Assembly: GCA_002686195.1 (NCBI GenBank)
Contig: NZAS01000192.1
Coordinates: 1-6,556 of the forward strand
Reading direction: 5' to 3'
DNA length: 6,556 nt
From: Candidatus Pacearchaeota archaeon
GTDB taxonomy: Archaea; Nanoarchaeota; Nanoarchaeia; Pacearchaeales; GW2011-AR1
Below are positions 1 through 5,772 of this stretch, piece by piece; within the stretch, counting starts at the first letter, position 1; each line of letters begins with the position of its first letter. A model generated the notes under the pieces. It was not told the origin of the DNA and did not search any database. It was given only the letters and a program-made list of their open reading frames with translations. A program made the translations under genes and the position numbers.

Positions 1-1740
1 GATGAAGCGCTCGGCAGGGTCCAGATACTCGGTGGTGATCGTGCCCGCTTCCTTTAATGCCTGGTTGTATTCCTTCAATGCTTCAGCCTGCTCCAGGGTC
101 TTGCTGGCATCGAAGGCAATGCCCGCCTGCATGCCCAGGCGCTGCAGGTTTATAATCAGGCCAGCAAACTCGGCAGCCCTGCGGTAGTTAGCCTCCAGGT
201 TGGCCGCATGCTGCCGCTGATTCTCGAAGTCGGGGGGATGGATATCCGGCGCTCCCTCTCGTGGCTTGGCCGCTTTGCGAGCCTTTGTCTTCTTCTCGAT
301 CTCTTCGAGCTGGCCGTTGATGAGGGACCACATGTGGCGGAGAGGCCCCAGGATGGTGGTCTCCGTGGAGGCGGCGGCGTTGTTTATCCGGTTCTCGACG
401 TTTTTCATTATGTCGTCGAACAGTTTTGTATTCTCGTCCGTCTCCGCCTTGACCGCGGCGGCCAGTTTCTTGCGGGCCTTGAGCGCAGCTGGCATAGCCT
501 CTTCCCTCAGAGCCTTAATCCGCTTTACATCCTTCTCCAGCTTGCGCATAAGATCGCTCGCTATCCTCAACTGGTTATCCAGGTCGTCACCGTGTCCGGA
601 TGGGATATCGAACCGTGACGCCTCCAGCTCGGCGGCGAGCGTTTTTGTGTCCCGCAGCCTTACCTGCACGATCCGGAGCTCGTCGGTCAGCGTTCGCACC
701 TTCTCGGAGCTGGCGAGCAGCAGGGCCTCGCCGATCTTTTCCGGGATGAACTTGGCGAACTCTATCAGGCCATAGAAAAACGGTTTCCAGAAGTCCTTGG
801 CGTGGTCCTTTGCGATGACCGCTGCCGTCGCAATGCCGCCTCCTATCATCCTGGGAATGGCCGCCCGCATCTCCGCCAGGAAGCCGGCCATGGCTGCCCG
901 CTTCTCGTCCGCATCCAGGAACTCCATGGCCTCGTTTATGCGCCGGCCAACGTTGAAGATCTCGGTCATCGTGTCCAATACAAATTTGAGCGTGGGCAAG
1001 GCCTTTTTGCCCATGCTGCCCGAAAACTCCATGAACGCAGATTGCATGACCTTCATCCTCGCCGAAAATCTCGATGTCGCTTTATCGATGGCCTGGCCGA
1101 ACTTTTCATCCCAGATTTCCAGCAGCGCGGCCCGGATCTCTTTGGCGTCGTTGCGCACGTGTTTGACCAGGTCGCCGCTCTGGATGATGGCCTTGTCTTT
1201 TGTCCGCCTGGCCTCGATGCCCAGCCGGCGAAGACTCTCGGTCTCAAACGAGACGTAAGCGCCTATAACGTCACGCAGATCCCTATTGAACGCCAGGGCC
1301 ACCCCGGCGAGGGCTTCGGTGACCCGCTGGGTCTCCTTCTCGCCCACCGCACCCAGGCGGATAAACGACTGAACCACCTCTTCCGTGGAAAGAGGCGAAG
1401 CGATGGCGAACTCTCGGATCGCATCAAAGGCTTTGTTCGCTTCGTCCAGATCGTCAATAAGAATCTGGATCTGGCTGTGATAGGTCTCCAGCCGGCCCGC
1501 GTCCTCGATGAACCTCCGCCCTAGCTCGATGGCCTTGTAGATGCCCAGTGCGCTCGCGGCCCCCAGGATGGCACCTTTCAGGCTGAGAAACCCAGCGGTC
1601 ATGCTGGCCGTGCCGGTGAGGGTGGCCTTGCTGGCTGCTTTGCTCTCCCCCTTCAGGTTCCGCATAGCGTTCCGGAATTCCGGGGACATCTGGTCCTGCA
1701 GGCGGAGGAAGATCTGGAGGGTGTTGCGTTTGGAGGGCAC
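1..1740 (-). CDS. Tape measure protein, N-terminal part (3' end outside window)
   Basis: The minus-strand frame stays open for 580 codons from a GTG at 1740 to the left edge, so the gene is cut at its 3' end. Tape measure proteins set tail length and fill the tail tube lumen. The beginning (residues 7-35) resembles the usual short amphipathic start with ASPVLRK-like spacing. A hydrophobic stretch lies at about 48-71. Residues 81-260 look like the conserved N-terminal tape measure region, with FAIASPLSTEEVV (111-123), a kL-like FIRLGAVG (126-133) and GIEARRTKDKA (174-184). Later parts are helical and charged (341-490), and 297-345 is mildly hydrophobic. Position directly after the chaperone pair matches gene H of lambda. 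No Shine-Dalgarno precedes the GTG, because a 12-bp repeat lies there. An ATG at 1689 (codon 18), preceded by AGGA, is an alternative start. The family call is confident, the exact start is not. Confidence 0.88.
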   Translation of the reverse strand, partial: MPSKRNTLQIFLRLQDQMSPEFRNAMRNLKGESKAASKATLTGTASMTAGFLSLKGAILGAASALGIYKAIELGRRFIEDAGRLETYHSQIQILIDDLDEANKAFDAIREFAIASPLSTEEVVQSFIRLGAVGEKETQRVTEALAGVALAFNRDLRDVIGAYVSFETESLRRLGIEARRTKDKAIIQSGDLVKHVRNDAKEIRAALLEIWDEKFGQAIDKATSRFSARMKVMQSAFMEFSGSMGKKALPTLKFVLDTMTEIFNVGRRINEAMEFLDADEKRAAMAGFLAEMRAAIPRMIGGGIATAAVIAKDHAKDFWKPFFYGLIEFAKFIPEKIGEALLLASSEKVRTLTDELRIVQVRLRDTKTLAAELEASRFDIPSGHGDDLDNQLRIASDLMRKLEKDVKRIKALREEAMPAALKARKKLAAAVKAETDENTKLFDDIMKNVENRINNAAASTETTILGPLRHMWSLINGQLEEIEKKTKARKAAKPREGAPDIHPPDFENQRQHAANLEANYRRAAEFAGLIINLQRLGMQAGIAFDASKTLEQAEALKEYNQALKEAGTITTEYLDPAERFI

Positions 1741-1869: not shown

Positions 1870-1998
1870 CCTTGTCCCTCCCTGACACCCGACACCTGAC
1901 ACCCGACCCTTGTCCCACCCTGACACCTGACACCCGACACCTGACACCCGACCCTTGTCCCACCCTGACACCCGACACCCGACACCACCTACCACCTA
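1870..1998. repeat. Heptamer array in reverse orientation with CCTTGTCCC spacers
   Basis: The plus strand carries runs of CCYGACA heptamers grouped in three blocks. Each block begins with CCTTGTCCCWC, at 1870, 1908 and 1953. The first block is 38 bases and the second 45, a difference of exactly one heptamer. The array ends with two CCACCTA units at 1985-1998, the last of which contains the complement of the TAG stop of the chaperone extension. It fills most of the gap between the chaperone and the tape measure gene. The pattern resembles the short tandemly repeated heptamers known from cyanobacterial genomes, but the motif differs and I infer only the type. Confidence 0.88.
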
Positions 1999-2379
1999 CT
2001 TCTTCCTCTCCTTCGCATCCAGCACCTCGTCGATCTTGACCTTCAGATACTGGCTGGCCTCGACGAATATGTTGGCCTGCTGGTTCAGGCCGCCGGGGAC
2101 GGGGGGGAGATCGGGCCAGGCACGGTAGGCGGTGAGGAAGGGATCGCCGAGCTGGCGGGCGCAACGGTTGGGGCAATCCCGTATGTCCTCTCTCCCAGTT
2201 CCGGAGCAGACGGAGCAATCGGGATCACCCATGCCGTTGCAAGACGTGCAGTCTATTTCCATGAAAGGCGCTGCCGCCGGGCCATCGCAGCCCCAGTCTG
2301 CCCGGTATTTCGGGTCATTCCAGCAGAGCCGGCAGGTAACGTTTAAGTCGCCACAGCTTGCCACTGCGGCGAGTGTCAG
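1996..2379 (-). CDS. Tail assembly chaperone frameshift extension (T-like, cysteine-rich)
   Basis: This frame is reached by a -1 shift at the end of the preceding G-like gene and adds 127 residues after Asn163, giving a 290-residue fusion. In lambda, gpG and gpGT made this way assist tail tube assembly around the tape measure; I infer the same role from position, order and size. The extension holds ten cysteines at extension residues 9, 16, 19, 31, 44, 47, 55, 58, 69 and 73. It includes CRLC, CTSCNGMG, CSVCSGTG and CPNRC. The second and third are strict CxxCxGxG motifs as in the DnaJ zinc-binding domain, so metal binding is likely. The C-terminal 50 residues are cysteine-free and end in a charged helix. 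No start with a ribosome binding site lies at the frame's beginning, so separate translation looks unlikely. Stop is TAG at 1996-1998. Confidence 0.8.
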   Translation of the reverse strand: MTLAAVASCGDLNVTCRLCWNDPKYRADWGCDGPAAAPFMEIDCTSCNGMGDPDCSVCSGTGREDIRDCPNRCARQLGDPFLTAYRAWPDLPPVPGGLNQQANIFVEASQYLKVKIDEVLDAKERKK

Positions 2380-2396
2380 TTTTTTCGGTCTTCTCC
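2350..2396 (-). promoter_or_regulatory. Programmed -1 ribosomal frameshift signal
   Basis: Read on the minus strand, the zero-frame codons CGA AAA AAC TGA contain the canonical slippery heptamer A AAA AAC (2385-2379) with the stop immediately after it. Eight bases later comes a stem-loop, GCCGCAG (2370-2364) pairing with CTGTGGC (2356-2350). It has seven base pairs, one of them G-U, around a 7-nt loop. A Shine-Dalgarno-like GGAG (2396-2393) lies seven bases upstream of the heptamer, comparable to the stimulator in dnaX. All parts of a bacterial -1 signal are present, and the shifted frame continues for 127 codons. Confidence 0.87.
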
Positions 2397-2867
2397 AGTG
2401 AGGGTATTCGCCTCGATGATTTTCTTCCCCAGGTCCGCCCGCTGGCGCACGGAGAGTAAGGAGAGCCGTTCTGCTGTGGTGCCGGTCATAAAGGGAATAT
2501 CCTGGCCGTCCGGCGCTTTGAAGTTCTCCCACCCCATCAGATATTTCTCTATTAAACTGGTGTAAAACGGGGTGAAGACCTCGGTAGCGCTTACGCTCCC
2601 GGCCTGGCTCATCAGCTCCTCGGACTTCTCCTCGAAATCCGGGTCATCTTCATCCATCTCCTCCAATTGCTGCCGGAGCCTCATAGCCTCTCTAAATGGC
2701 TTCTGAAAATCCTCGGCGGCTTTCTGCTGGGCGGGTATCAGCTCCCCGTTTACCTTCTCTACGCTCAAGACCCGGACCTTAAAGATGGTCTGGTCCTCAG
2801 CTTCCAGCTCTTTGTCTTCTTCGAGAATGACGTCGGTCGTCTTGTCGGGCGTGGTGGCAATAGCCAT
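2376..2867 (-). CDS. Tail assembly chaperone, short form (G-like)
   Basis: This 163-residue acidic protein sits between the tube gene and the tape measure gene, the normal place of the G/GT chaperone in siphophages. An extended N-terminal part (about 13-45) could be the strand-rich core. Residues 45-90 are helical and highly charged, and 97-155 contain FYTSLIEKYLMGWENF and a basic tail. The ATG at 2867 is preceded by GGAGGA with a 9-base spacing, the best ribosome binding site in the window. The reading frame ends in a slippery A AAA AAC TGA, so a fraction of ribosomes should produce the longer 290-residue form. The two products are expected to coat the tape measure and recruit tube protein. 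The function rests on context, size and the frameshift; I do not recognise a specific sequence family. Confidence 0.82.
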   Translation of the reverse strand: MAIATTPDKTTDVILEEDKELEAEDQTIFKVRVLSVEKVNGELIPAQQKAAEDFQKPFREAMRLRQQLEEMDEDDPDFEEKSEELMSQAGSVSATEVFTPFYTSLIEKYLMGWENFKAPDGQDIPFMTGTTAERLSLLSVRQRADLGKKIIEANTLTGEDRKN

Positions 2868-2898: not shown

Positions 2899-2925
2899 CA
2901 GGTGTCTGGTGTCAGGTGTCGGTCA
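2899..2925. repeat. Short heptamer repeat between the membrane protein and chaperone genes
   Basis: Three heptamers (AGGTGTC, TGGTGTC, AGGTGTC) at 2900-2920 are flanked by TCA/GGTCA edges. The complement of the right edge contains the TGA stop of the membrane protein gene (2925-2923). The chaperone's ribosome binding site lies outside the repeat and is intact. Confidence 0.82.
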
Positions 2926-3195
2926 GGGATTCCTCCGCAGGTCGTCCACTTCTTTCCTGAGCCGCTCCAGTTGGATGGAAAGGGTGTGATGAATGGCAGG
3001 GTCGGCGAGGTGAGAAGTCAGCTCTCCCCTTACATCCTCGCTAACGTCCAGCTTGGCTTGAATGCGTGCCAGGGTCATAGAGACCCAGCACGCCCAGGGG
3101 ATTACGAGCATGAGAACAAAGGCCGCCGCTGCGATAAACCAGTTGGGGATCTTGTAGTAGATGGTGCTTGATGCGGATTCAGAGACTTCAGACAT
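2923..3195 (-). CDS. Small single-pass membrane protein, function unknown
   Basis: The 90-residue product has a short polar N-terminus, one strong hydrophobic segment at about residues 19-41 (NWFIAAAAFVLMLVIPWACW), and then a charged helical tail. The end of the tail (72-88, SIQLERLRKEVDDLRR) has a coiled-coil-like pattern. The protein-like composition and its place in the tail operon support a real gene. It could be a membrane-anchored accessory, a holin-like protein or a superinfection-exclusion factor, but nothing in the sequence decides this. A membrane protein between the tube gene and the chaperone gene is unusual. The ATG at 3195 has no recognisable Shine-Dalgarno; the preceding bases, ACACCTG, look like a fragment of the heptamer repeat. 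A stop lies 30 bases upstream in frame, and no better start exists. Its TGA stop touches the next heptamer repeat. Confidence 0.7.
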   Translation of the reverse strand: MSEVSESASSTIYYKIPNWFIAAAAFVLMLVIPWACWVSMTLARIQAKLDVSEDVRGELTSHLADPAIHHTLSIQLERLRKEVDDLRRNP

Positions 3196-3218: not shown

Positions 3219-3253
3219 CGTTTCATGCTGCAGGGTACCAGCGACCCTCACCC
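3219..3253. repeat. Inverted repeat copy A, downstream of the tube gene
   Basis: The complement of this 35-base segment matches 4710-4745 at 32 of 36 aligned positions, with one single-base gap. The shared core includes GGGTGAGGGTCGC and ACCCTGCAGCAT. The two copies face each other across the tube gene. On the right this copy joins directly to the REP-like hairpin. Confidence 0.85.
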
Positions 3254-3279
3254 CGGCCCTCTCCCAGAGGGAGAGGGGG
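3244..3279. repeat. REP-like hairpin after the tube gene
   Basis: A perfect 9-bp stem, CCCTCTCCC (3257-3265) and GGGAGAGGG (3269-3277), encloses a 3-base loop. It is preceded by CCCTCACCCCGG. This composition matches the widespread family of extragenic palindromes whose accidental translation reads HPGPLPEGEG. It starts a few bases beyond the TAA stop of the tube gene. It could slow polymerase or protect the mRNA 3' end, but no T-run follows on the minus strand, so it is not a typical intrinsic terminator. Confidence 0.82.
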
Positions 3280-3284
3280 ATTTG

Positions 3285-4682
3285 TTAGAACAGATAGAAA
3301 CAGAGCTCCAAGTCATCCTCTCTGGAATGCGTTTTTGTGAAGCGGCAGGCGTGCTCGCCGGTGGCGATGTTCTCCCGGTTGCCTTCGGTGATGCCCTCGA
3401 TCTGCATGCCCTTCGCATAGACTCCGAACTGGTTGCCGGCCACCGATCCCCAGGTGCAGTCGAGCTCGATGGTGGTCTCGTTTTCTGCCGAGCCCTGGAA
3501 ATCGAATGTCCCCTTGTGAACCGAGTCGAGATTCATCGTTCCCCGCCAGTTGCGGGCGCCGATCTCGTATCCCAAAATGCCGGAGGCGGCCTGGGAGTCC
3601 TCGATGGCGGCCAGGGCGTTCTCCAGGCTGAAGGACATAGCGCCGATGCGCAGGCCGGTGGTGCTGTCCAGGGCGAAGCTGATACCCTTGAACCGCGGGC
3701 CGGCGACTCGCTCCTCGCTGGTGCCGCTGAAAGCGGCGACATCGCTATCGCCGCCGTTCGCTCCCATGGCGGAAAAGTTGAGCCGCCCCTCTCTGCCGGA
3801 GCGTAGCTCGATGTTCGGGCTCACCCGGCAGCCGATGGCCGTGTGACGGTGACCGTGGCGGTTGCGGTAGATCGTCAGGCTGGGGATCTCGCTCTGGGAT
3901 GGGTCGGTCGAGCTGGTAGCCGATGCGCTCGAATCCGCCCCGGTCAGGGTCTCGGCGTTCTGGAATGTGCCATCCACGTGCATCAGGAAGATTTTGGCGT
4001 CCCCGTCTGCCGTGGCCTGGTAGGCGTAGCCGATGGCGGCGCTCGTGCCGCCGGTGACCTTCTCGCCCGCCGTGTAGGGGCCGCCTGCTACCGCTCCGAT
4101 GGAAAGCTCGATAAGCGGGTCAGTGTGGGGCATCAGCACCCGGCCATAGTTGCTGTCTGTGGTCGAAGGGGTGGCCGTGGCAGCGCTGTCCGCACCGGTC
4201 CAGACATTCGAGTTGTCGGTCGAGCCTGTCACGTCATAGACCAGCAGGGTGGTTGTGCCGTTGGCGGTGTCCTTGAACACCTTTGCCGTGGCTCCGGTGA
4301 CGGCCTGAGAGATCGATTCCCCGTGCAGGTAGGGGCCGCCGGTGACCGCCCCGATGGTGATCTGTTTGAGCGCCTTTACCCTCCATCCGCCGGCCCTCAT
4401 CAGCAGGTACCAGTTCGGGTCAGAGGTGATGAGCCCATCGGCAGGGCCGGCCAGGTAGGAGCCGAAGTTGATGCCCCGGCTCAGCGCCCCGGAGTTGGCC
4501 CCGGTATCGCTGAGGGTGAGGGACTGCTCTTCGTCGTCCTCCATGTCCATCTCTTCCTCTTTGCCGATGCCGAAGCAGCGCAGGCCCACATCGGCGGCGT
4601 CGAGTGTCTCTTCCGTGCCGAATACTGCCTCCTGAGCGAAAGCGATTTGCTGTAGCTGGTCGAGTTGTGAGCCGAATGCCAT
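3285..4682 (-). CDS. Probable major tail tube protein with duplicated inserted domain
   Basis: The 465-residue product has the order and size expected for the tail tube subunit, upstream of the chaperone pair and tape measure. The start FGSQLDQLQQIAFAQEAVFGT and the later region 284-465 (SPNIELRSGREGRLNFSAMG, then FKGISFALD and MSFSLENALAAI) resemble tube proteins made of a beta-rich core. Between them sit two related units, at about 108-176 and 193-263. Each begins with a S/T-IGAV-x-GGPY motif followed by G-E and TG, and ends with a TGADS-(A/S)-ATAT-like segment. They look like tandem surface-exposed decoration domains inserted into the core. The ATG at 4682 is preceded by AAAGGA with an 8-base spacing. 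Five cysteines are present. Function is inferred from position and architecture. A structural decoration protein is less likely because no other tube candidate is visible. Confidence 0.78.
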   Translation of the reverse strand: MAFGSQLDQLQQIAFAQEAVFGTEETLDAADVGLRCFGIGKEEEMDMEDDEEQSLTLSDTGANSGALSRGINFGSYLAGPADGLITSDPNWYLLMRAGGWRVKALKQITIGAVTGGPYLHGESISQAVTGATAKVFKDTANGTTTLLVYDVTGSTDNSNVWTGADSAATATPSTTDSNYGRVLMPHTDPLIELSIGAVAGGPYTAGEKVTGGTSAAIGYAYQATADGDAKIFLMHVDGTFQNAETLTGADSSASATSSTDPSQSEIPSLTIYRNRHGHRHTAIGCRVSPNIELRSGREGRLNFSAMGANGGDSDVAAFSGTSEERVAGPRFKGISFALDSTTGLRIGAMSFSLENALAAIEDSQAASGILGYEIGARNWRGTMNLDSVHKGTFDFQGSAENETTIELDCTWGSVAGNQFGVYAKGMQIEGITEGNRENIATGEHACRFTKTHSREDDLELCFYLF

Positions 4683-4745: not shown

Positions 4746-4786
4746 CTAATTATCTTCGGATCTGCGGATGTGCTAGGTCGGGGGAG

Positions 4787-4869
4787 GGGTGTCAGGTGTC
4801 GGGTGTCGGGTGTCTGGCTCGGAAGGGCTGGCGATGGCTCTCGACACTGACACCCGACACCCGACACCT
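4787..4869. repeat. Heptamer repeats arranged as a perfect 21-bp inverted repeat
   Basis: Four forward heptamers fill 4787-4814. The last three (4794-4814) are perfectly complementary to three reverse heptamers at 4849-4869, leaving a 34-base loop. A degenerate heptamer (GACACTGA) borders the right arm. The right arm overlaps the stop codon of the neighbouring gene: the AG of its TAG belongs to the last heptamer. RNA from either strand could form a very stable hairpin between the 112-residue protein gene and the tube gene. No T-run follows the stem on the minus strand, so a termination role is uncertain. Confidence 0.9.
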
Positions 4870-5206
4870 AGATGACTTCCTCGATCACCACCGAAATATC
4901 GACGGCCGTAGCGGTCTTGTGGGCGAGCCGCACGGGGGCGGCGAAGCGGTAGTTGCCGCTGCTCTCGCCGGGTCCTGGGGGTGTCCAGGTGAAGGTCGCC
5001 GATCCGCCGAGCTGGTCGTGATAAAGATCTTCTACGGCCTTGGCGTGAAACCGCGATCGATTCGGCCAGGTGATGCTCCACCTACGGCCCTTCAGGGGAG
5101 AAACCCTGGTCGCAATCGCTACCCCGCTCTCCGGATCGGACCGGCGCTGGCGGTAGGTGTGGCGGACCGTGTAGCGGAGTGGGTTTGCGATGGGGAACGA
5201 AGCCAT
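4868..5206 (-). CDS. Probable phage tail protein of 112 residues, specific role unknown
   Basis: A compact protein between the terminator-like and tube genes. The sequence FPIANPLRYTV, a WSITWP motif (43-48) after a basic stretch, AVEDLYHDQLGG (57-68) and FTWTPP (72-77) recall small minor tail proteins that begin MxFPxLSP. In those, a W-x-L-x-W/F strand is followed by a helix and a second strand entering a GxxF-x-W/L-P segment. I infer a tail role from this pattern and the position but cannot name a family. The ATG at 5206 has no Shine-Dalgarno: the heptamer repeats end directly before it, and its first codons overlap a degenerate heptamer. The stop TAG is completed by the next heptamer repeat, so the natural C-terminus may have been altered at that boundary. 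Confidence 0.72.
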   Translation of the reverse strand: MASFPIANPLRYTVRHTYRQRRSDPESGVAIATRVSPLKGRRWSITWPNRSRFHAKAVEDLYHDQLGGSATFTWTPPGPGESSGNYRFAAPVRLAHKTATAVDISVVIEEVI

Positions 5207-5230
5207 GGCGTCAGGTGTCAGGTGTCAGGG
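5206..5230. repeat. Heptamer repeats touching a start codon
   Basis: TGGCGTC (degenerate, overlapping the start region), AGGTGTC and AGGTGTC occupy 5206-5226. They lie between the start of the 112-residue protein gene and the stop of the terminator-like gene. The minus-strand leader therefore reads CCTGACACCTGACGCC before the ATG, with no purine-rich ribosome binding site. Confidence 0.85.
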
Positions 5231-5233
5231 TTG

Positions 5234-5265
5234 AACTACGTGTATGGATCGTCATACACGTAGTT
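5234..5265. other. Perfect 13-bp palindrome over the stop codon of the terminator-like gene
   Basis: AACTACGTGTATG (5234-5246) and its exact complement CATACACGTAGTT (5253-5265) flank a 6-base loop. The stem covers the last codons and the TAG stop of the tail-terminator-like gene (5238-5236). No T-run follows on the minus strand, so this is a strong RNA hairpin or DNA palindrome rather than a standard terminator. Confidence 0.85.
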
Positions 5266-5748
5266 GTATTGCATCCGGATCGAGATGGGGACGATGCACC
5301 AGGGCTCGCCTTCATCATCCTCGGCCTCCATGACCATCCAGTCTCTTACCTGGGTCCAGACTACTGCCCCGCCCAGGGGGGGGTCGGCCATGATGGCTTT
5401 CTCGATGTCGCTCACAAAATCATCGGCCAGGTCGTCGGTCTCGGTGTCTGAATCGTCCTCCTGGTCGTGAACGAAATAGAGGATGGCCAGCACGTCTAGA
5501 AACCTTTCGGTTTCGTTGGCGATGCTTTCCTCTCCCTCGACTTCGACCATGGCGTTGCCCTCGGTGGTGAGTATTACCAGCGGGAGGGTGTTGAAGTCGT
5601 TTACCTGGAATTCCGTATCGCCGGTAACCTTGCGCTTCCGGTATTTCTGCACGCTGTTAATGTCCCGCTGGTACCCGTTGGCGACGGTGACGGTGGCGAT
5701 GCGGGTCTGAAGGGCGTCTGTGGCGAGGCGGCGTTTTGAGGAGGCCAT
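5236..5748 (-). CDS. Tail terminator-like protein (lambda U-type position)
   Basis: This 170-residue protein begins MASSKRRLATDALQTRIATV, a pattern common in phage tail terminator proteins, whose first helix is followed by short strands. A strand block lies at 46-72 (TEFQVNDFNTLPLVILTTEG and MVEVEG), then an acidic stretch at 95-111 (DQEDDSDTETDDLADDF) and a helix that may include 112-121. The end, IRMQYNYVYDDPYT, matches the aromatic YxYxYDDPY end seen in many such proteins. Tail terminators cap the tube at its head-proximal end and stop polymerisation. The order tail completion - terminator - tube supports this. The ATG at 5748 is directly preceded by heptamer repeats and lacks a Shine-Dalgarno, but no better start exists and the N-terminus looks natural. 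Acidic residues 95-111 may be an extra loop. Confidence 0.77.
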   Translation of the reverse strand: MASSKRRLATDALQTRIATVTVANGYQRDINSVQKYRKRKVTGDTEFQVNDFNTLPLVILTTEGNAMVEVEGEESIANETERFLDVLAILYFVHDQEDDSDTETDDLADDFVSDIEKAIMADPPLGGAVVWTQVRDWMVMEAEDDEGEPWCIVPISIRMQYNYVYDDPYT

Positions 5749-5749
5749 G

Positions 5750-5772
5750 GGGTGTCAGGTGTCAGGTGTCGG
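5750..5772. repeat. Heptamer repeats between the 65-residue and terminator-like genes
   Basis: GGGTGTC, AGGTGTC and AGGTGTC fill 5750-5770 directly next to the ATG at 5748. The complementary leader of the terminator-like gene ends GACACCCC before the ATG. It contains no recognisable ribosome binding site within the usual distance. Confidence 0.86.

Follow-up and report, generated by a model that had tools for sequence, protein, structure and literature searches.

Gene order and features of the locus

The window, i.e., the whole stretch of 6,556 nucleotides that was analysed, lies within an IMG/VR record of 32,219 bases, and its sequence is that of a virus of bacteria. The order on the minus strand is tail terminator, an ORF of 112 aa, tail tube, an ORF of 90 aa, G, T and tape measure, and the parts of the locus are the following:

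5236..5748, minus strand: tail terminator protein (PHROG 4204 tail terminator, E 5.3e-6)
3285..4682, minus strand: tail tube protein, 465 aa (Pfam Phage_tube_2, E 4.1e-4, 20.5 bits against a cut-off of 27)
2376..2867, minus strand: G-like tail assembly chaperone, 163 aa, zero frame (ORF between the tail tube and tape measure genes)
2393..2396, minus strand: Shine-Dalgarno-like GGAG upstream of the slip site (from the sequence)
2379..2385, minus strand: slippery heptamer A_AAA_AAC, then the zero-frame stop TGA at 2376-2378 (from the sequence)
2348..2372, minus strand: hairpin of 10 bp, starting 6 nt past the slip site (RNA fold)
1996..2379, minus strand: Cys-rich extension in the -1 frame (T domain), 127 aa plus stop (alignment A2; AF2 pLDDT 88)
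2173..2334, minus strand: outer cysteine tetrad, with C18 at 2332-2334, C21 at 2323-2325, C33 at 2287-2289 and C71 at 2173-2175
2206..2250, minus strand: inner cysteine tetrad, a DnaJ/anti-TRAP-like pair, with C46 at 2248-2250, C49 at 2239-2241, C57 at 2215-2217 and C60 at 2206-2208
1..1740, minus strand: tape measure protein, N-terminal part (Pfam TMP_3 and PHROG tape measure families)

The complete tape measure protein in the 32 kb record has 820 aa. Pfam TMP_3 matches it at E 1.8e-4, with 21.8 bits against a cut-off of 41, and among the PHROG tape measure families the best match is at 1.6e-5. Further upstream, the same record has genes whose translations read by eye as terminase, portal, protease and capsid proteins.

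Some further features of the surroundings may be recorded here. The 90-aa ORF between the tail tube and G (2923-3195, minus strand) has an apparent membrane segment by eye and a weak PHROG holin match (E 0.2). The gene borders at 1748-1986, 2882-2917, 4776-4868, 5188-5223 and 5732-5767 are occupied by runs of repeats of the GTGTCAGGTGTCGGGTGTC type, which occur in either orientation; two of the copies, at 1881 and 1926, are perfect over 45 nt. A GC-rich palindrome-like stretch (CCCTCACCCCGGCCCTCTCCCAGAGGGAGAGGG) was noticed by eye at the border at about 3247-3280. In the locus L002, two ORFs resembling DNA methyltransferases by eye (DPPYG motifs; 9322-11169, minus strand) lie between the tail and capsid genes.

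Between the tail tube and tape measure genes, two ORFs overlap, the second of them in the -1 frame. The G-like ORF (2867-2376) ends in CGA AAA AAC TGA, which places the X_XXY_YYZ heptamer A_AAA_AAC (2385-2379) at the very end of this ORF, accompanied by stimulators and with TGA as the next codon, and the extension (2379-1996) would be entered from there by a -1 slip. The earlier note had read this extension as the part of a tail assembly chaperone that is made by frameshifting, in agreement with the slippery site, the -1 frame and the gene order. Its count of ten cysteines in 127 residues was confirmed by the reading frame, and the motifs CTSCNGMG, CSVCSGTG, CRLC and CPNRC are all present in the translation. 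The relatives described below share eight of these ten cysteines (C18, C21, C33, C46, C49, C57, C60 and C71, counted from KKL). The two outside the conserved columns are cysteine 11 and the second C of CPNRC, which is cysteine 75.

Relatives of the extension and their frameshift signals

Searches with single sequences found no relatives, and the family is described here from scans of DNA patterns. The first scan of viral contigs, for a slippery site and two CxxCxG motifs, gave at least 120 stretches. Where, among the 120 matches listed, an ORF of at least 100 codons precedes the motifs, these are in the -1 frame in 24 cases, in the zero frame in 5 and in the +1 frame in none; without such an ORF, the -1, zero and +1 frames account for 12, 5 and 17 cases, and the other 57 fall into none of these classes. 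A chance motif is ruled out by this frame census (24 : 5 : 0) and by the shuffles of the window, where the pattern A_AAA_AAC ... CxxCxG ... CxxCxG is found once in the real sequence and in 0 of 200 shuffled ones. A scan of genome contigs on the same principle, with AAAAAACTGA, gave 27 stretches, three of which have an upstream ORF of at least 90 codons: L127, L136 (from a Phycisphaerales bin) and L141 (from an Ignavibacteria bin).

The second viral scan was blind to the slippery site and required CxxCxG, CxxCxG and CP at fixed spacing, which gave at least 120 stretches; 111 loci were analysed, the remaining nine of the 120 listed being already known from the first scan. Among these listed matches, the motif is in an open frame in 105 of the 111 and interrupted by a stop in 6, and 60 of the 105 pass a filter for a slippery heptamer and an upstream ORF of at least 80 codons; the other 45 comprise 18 T-like loci with no listed heptamer, some of them at a contig end, and 27 others. 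Of these 27, 24 encode, together with L160, unrelated small free-standing proteins of the type CxxCxGGLxxCTVCxGxExSLPTDCPG, with no slippery G ORF before them, a class which includes L151, L156, L160, L174, L185 and L206.

T domains with no classical heptamer occur at L165, L198, L204, L217, L228, L231, L233, L240, L246 and L251, where G ends in GGGGGAGTGA, or in GGGGGAGTAA at L231 and GGGGACTGA at L228.

The pooled scans gave 82 rows, from which L063 and L160 were dropped by eye, leaving 80 loci, among which seven have the same T as another locus; 64 rows remain at 70 percent identity, and alignment A2 (63 relatives and the window) omits the truncated L028. At least 80 further loci, nearly all from uncultured viruses, were thus found by the DNA-pattern scans to have a G-like ORF, a slippery heptamer and a -1 extension. 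Their heptamers are AAAAAAC (38), GGGAAAC (19), AAAAAAA (13), GGGAAAG (6) and four others found once each, and among these listed matches the zero-frame stop follows the slip by 0-2 codons in 68 of 80. PHROGs identify the next ORF as a tape measure protein in nine of ten cases tested, the tenth being a fragment of 107 aa at a contig end. Many other phages have the same design, a common feature that had gone unrecognised, and the relatives of the extension in the protein collection are unnamed or hypothetical.

The usual determinants of a frameshift are a slippery site, a Shine-Dalgarno-like word and a hairpin. Across 65 loci (the window included), words of the GGAG type peak at -12/-11 from the heptamer, the SD-like pairing is slightly above that of the shuffles (p 0.044), and the hairpins are stronger than in the shuffles (mean z -0.83, p 2.8e-4). 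The hairpin of the window itself (2372-2348) has -17.3 kcal/mol, with a z of -4.3 when cut out and of -1.47 in the uncut 50-nt window. Given these signals, which can be read directly from the DNA, the window virus would be expected to produce both G and GT through a -1 frameshift.

Cysteine conservation, separable tetrads and fold comparisons

The earlier note had made its proposal depend on the conservation of the cysteines across relatives, and they are indeed conserved. In A2 (64 rows), C18, C46, C49, C57, C60, C71 and P72 are found in 64/64, C21 in 60/64, C33 in 55/64, P95 in 62/64 and Q103 in 61/64, where the conservation of the inner four cysteines is by construction in both A1 and A2 (the scan patterns required them); the same holds for C71-P72 in those rows that the second scan contributed. 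C18, C71 and P72 are invariant in A1, which is drawn from the first scan alone, although its pattern did not require them. Both TGC and TGT are used at all eight Cys positions. Of 13 close pairs, partly non-independent, 12 have a dN/dS of 0.03-0.24, and the pair L158/L181 has 0.61. Both tetrads provide the four conserved candidate ligands expected of a zinc site; C21 is absent from four of the 64 rows and C33 from nine. A His is present in 3/3 of the Cys-poor members and in 25/61 of the others, and the replacement of Cys by His was rejected as proof of a metal site, the difference being not significant (p 0.079).

The cysteines form two nested sets: the outer one has the form CxxC...C...CP, and the inner one, CxxCxG...CxxCxG, sits inside it as an insertion between C33 and C71. 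The bias of a search by cysteines was avoided by using a profile of the G proteins (A3) for the genomes, which matched 6 of 392 genomes in the phylum to which the Phycisphaerales locus belongs (E <= 1e-3), 0 of 247, 2 of 299 and 0 of 199 genomes in three other phyla (E <= 1e-5), and one of six handle genomes, this one being itself found by the pattern. Both sets occur in four of the eight genomes obtained with the G profile (G001, which is the pattern-found seed, G055, G099 and G248), with a CxC in place of one CxxC at the G099 locus (L267) and C33 absent from the G248 locus (L263). The other four (G036, G053, G941 and G1093; loci L265, L268, L272 and L273) keep CxxC...C...CP, and the inner pair is absent from them as a block. 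The reverse arrangement is found in L262, a match of the T profile with an AAAAAAA slip, which has the inner CxxCxG pair only and no outer cysteine.

The outer-only kind is also found in cultured phages. A tblastn search with the extensions of L272, L265, JP1 and P24 returned 13 cultured-phage records, with one phage listed twice, and eight phages were examined: Rhizobium vB_RleS_L338C, RHph_I4 and RHph_TM16, Rhodobacter RcZahn and RcTiptonus, Agrobacterium JP1, Alteromonas P24 and Microcystis Mae-JY22. All eight have the outer CxxC...C...CP and none has the inner pair, but these phages are a non-independent sample, because they were found by their similarity to outer-only extensions. They share with the window the slippery heptamer (AAAAAAC in five, GGGAAAC in two and AAAAAAG in one), the -1 extension (103-144 aa) and the outer motif, and differ from it in having no inner CxxCxG pair. 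The tape measure gene is annotated directly after the extension in 6/8, with one ORF between them in L338C and a position beyond the stretch examined in RHph_TM16.

None of the eight records annotates a fused G-T gene, and several annotate separate genes; the T-frame gene is hypothetical or unannotated, except for gp28 of RcZahn (tail assembly chaperone), while in RcTiptonus the name "tail assembly chaperone" sits on the G gene. For RcZahn, the available portion of PMC8601537 describes the frameshift sequences as being without clear evidence, contrary to which AAAAAAC is found at position 2330 of the locus of this phage (L275), with an open -1 frame of 139 codons.

In alignment A5 (21 rows, of which 9 are two-site and 12 outer-only), C18, C33, C71, P72 and Q103 are invariant. 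The two-site and outer-only kinds are interleaved in the tree of the G proteins, in which many forks are weak and five changes are needed; the inner module may have been gained or lost several times, and it may also have had a single origin. An all-four-or-none pattern of cysteines is what would be expected of two metal sites, and the T domain probably binds metal, given that its cysteines are conserved in tetrads which come and go as units.

This does not extend to every frameshifted tail chaperone. The N-terminus of the tape measure protein is common to 45 matched records, and in the nine phages examined among them there are four with slips of the TTTTTT type and Cys-free extensions, one of the TTTTTT type with two cysteines, one human-gut contig with AAAAAAC and five cysteines, and three with no candidate heptamer. 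The idea that all T domains are Cys-rich was thus rejected, by the four Cys-free extensions and the one with two cysteines. The gut contig (L285, MT836000.1) has its AAAAAAC slip at 1942 and an extension of 99 aa with CAGC...CPFHKC, which is possibly a further variant.

The family searches gave little for either part of the protein. The window extension has no hit in Pfam, and its best matches are at E 0.02 in PHROGs and 0.76 in NCBIfam; seven further extensions have no family match below E 0.02, and the relatives have scattered short matches, such as Pfam TMEM106_N (4.1e-4, in 1/22) and PHROG 6060, antitermination Q-like (7.8e-4, in 1/22). The window G protein has no PHROG match and no relevant Pfam family. 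It aligns in A3 with 29 proteins that precede such extensions, at 19-34% identity, and these 30 G proteins match four PHROG families of tail assembly chaperones weakly (1-2 members each, E 0.005-0.17) and none of the tail assembly chaperone families in Pfam.

The DnaJ-like zinc motif proposed in the earlier note stands as a local resemblance of the inner pair, and a place for the extension among the DnaJ proteins is unsupported. In the PDB, the A1 profile finds DnaJ 1exk (E 2.5e-4) and anti-TRAP 3lcz (0.0076), through the inner pair only, below a top row of 8xku (2e-4; molecule name Embryo defective 2737), and A2 matches the same two at 0.001 and 0.02. The family DnaJ_CXXCXGXG (PF00684) has no match in the window and matches 3/22 members (best E 0.09), the window extension has two such repeats and not four, and Pfam finds no J domain in the extension or in the G protein. 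The extension was rejected as a DnaJ: only two of its cysteine pairs are of the CxxCxG form, and the tetrad common to all the cultured phages examined is of another kind, CxxC...C...CP. The DnaJ/Hsp40 zinc domain and the window share the CxxCxGxG pairs, and the window differs by having no J domain, two motifs of this type instead of four, a shorter spacing and the outer CxxC...C...CP; its arrangement of one set within another recalls the nesting of zinc sites I and II in DnaJ.

On the side of anti-TRAP, the RtpA family NF058604 matches 19/64 members at E <1 (best 1.9e-6), and the window, with 9.9 bits against a cut-off of 65, falls outside the family. Two close CxxCxG motifs are common to both, but anti-TRAP is a free regulator of TRAP, whereas the window module is part of a larger domain. 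A further comparison is offered by the DNA polymerases of HMO-2011-type phages, which are described in PMC9038755 (available in part) as having a partial DnaJ domain with two CXXCXGXG repeats; these are replication proteins, in contrast to a tail chaperone, and that part of the paper mentions no frameshift.

The extension was modelled by AF2 with a pLDDT of 88.3 and a pTM of 0.68, and the Cys core, with the 64 rows, with 92.6 and 0.71. In the model, helices at 18-21 and 25-31 precede C33, the inner cysteines lie between strands at 42-45 and 65-68, which presumably form a hairpin, and C71 is just ahead of a helix at 72-89. Foldseek gave no significant match, the best E being 0.53 (anti-TRAP) for the core and 2.9 for the whole extension; the top three rows for the core are anti-TRAP (0.53, 0.86 and 1.3), with BSD2 appearing later (3.0 and 4.6).

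Proposed role of the T domain in tail assembly

Frameshifted pairs of tail assembly chaperones were reportedly described by Xu, Hendrix and Duda in 2004. The window shares with gpG/gpGT of lambda the order tube, G, T in the -1 frame and tape measure, as well as the heptamer and the restriction of T to the minor product, and it differs in its T domain, which has one or two conserved tetra-cysteine sites in its family. In lambda, many copies of G bind the tape measure protein, and a few GT bring the tube subunits through T, according to the portion of PMC5009743 that was available.

Given this, the locus quite likely encodes a lambda-type G/GT pair whose T is a small domain held structurally by zinc, with an outer core and an inserted inner module. 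Most ribosomes would stop after G, and a minority would slip by -1 on A_AAA_AAC, adding the T domain of 127 residues. The outer site (C18, C21, C33 and C71) would connect the helices near the N-terminus with the beginning of a helix further on, and the anti-TRAP/DnaJ-type module (C46, C49, C57 and C60), inserted between C33 and C71, would be an accessory. The zinc, and the meeting of its ligands in space, are predicted from the cysteine pattern; the metal would have a structural role, and T, by analogy with lambda, would bind the tube protein and recruit the tail tube subunits to the tape measure protein coated by G.

The cysteines might instead act through disulphides, which would hold or release T in place of zinc, such that GT would work only in a reducing cytoplasm or respond to stress. 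The CxxC pairs of the extension are compatible with this, being also typical of redox sites, but cysteines joined by disulphides should be lost two at a time, whereas the tetrads CxxCxG and CxxC..C..CP are present or absent four at once, which fits a metal site, and the local similarity is to zinc modules; such a switch is very unlikely. Metal could also gate the protein, with an apo-GT that cannot recruit the tube protein and with zinc or redox setting the amount of active GT, a role that would suit sites which exist only in the rarer frameshifted form. Nothing was found pointing to a conditional signal, however, the G:GT ratio is set before the domain is synthesised, and structural zinc is the commoner role for such sites, so that gating appears highly improbable. 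The related suggestion of the earlier note, that zinc controls the ratio of the two chaperones, is likewise unlikely, because the T domain is translated only after the slip, for which a slip site, an SD-like word and a hairpin are present. Metal, the other option in that note, or redox state may still influence the activity of GT.

The inner module could be a chaperone element in its own right, which would contact unfolded tube protein or tape measure protein as proposed for the zinc domain of DnaJ, with the zinc being structural. The inner CxxCxGxG pair with its match to DnaJ 1exk, the presence of BSD2 among the Foldseek rows and the position of the protein as a chaperone all favour this, but the module is absent from relatives that keep the slip site, the outer site and the gene order, the DnaJ family tests gave no membership, and anti-TRAP, which is not a folding chaperone, matches as well or better by family profile and fold; contact with clients is thus possible, though rather unlikely. 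Finally, the extension might be a separate gene started inside the overlap, with no frameshift in the window virus. Several cultured-phage records do annotate two genes, an 88-aa entry of the protein collection (P0002) is a shortened form of the window product, and in the clade of L165, L198, L233, L246 and others the GGGGGAGTGA ending provides a T-frame GTG with no classical heptamer, which could be a start in most of these loci. Another slip is as likely there as a GTG start, because L231 has GTA and L228 has CTG in its place, and the in-frame heptamer kept in 80 loci (among the matches listed), with a nearby zero-frame stop in 68, as well as the hairpins stronger than shuffles, speak against independent initiation, which is extremely improbable for the window virus.

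Returning to the G/GT pair with a zinc-held T domain, no description of a zinc or cysteine motif in a frameshifted tail chaperone was found in searches of an open-access library of papers, including the available portions of PMC5009743, PMC8601537, PMC12846349, PMC5313236, PMC7230728, PMC7911831, PMC9038755 and PMC3091744. The tetra-cysteine T domain appears to be new; the frameshifted tail chaperone pair and CXXCXGXG pairs outside DnaJ are known.

None of the family libraries searched (Pfam, PHROGs and NCBIfam) names the T domain of the window virus, and the cysteine signature provides a handle for recognising this class of chaperones across very different viruses and for correcting annotations, such as split or missing GT genes and the published lack of a frameshift signal in RcZahn. 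The class is probably widespread and undescribed, with a zinc-binding T domain found only in the frameshifted product, an outer core across host groups and an inner zinc module that is gained or lost. The compact and probably metal-stabilised T domains are targets for structure work, and the one-site and two-site members constitute a natural experiment on the role of the second module, which, being separable, may widen what the chaperone can hold.
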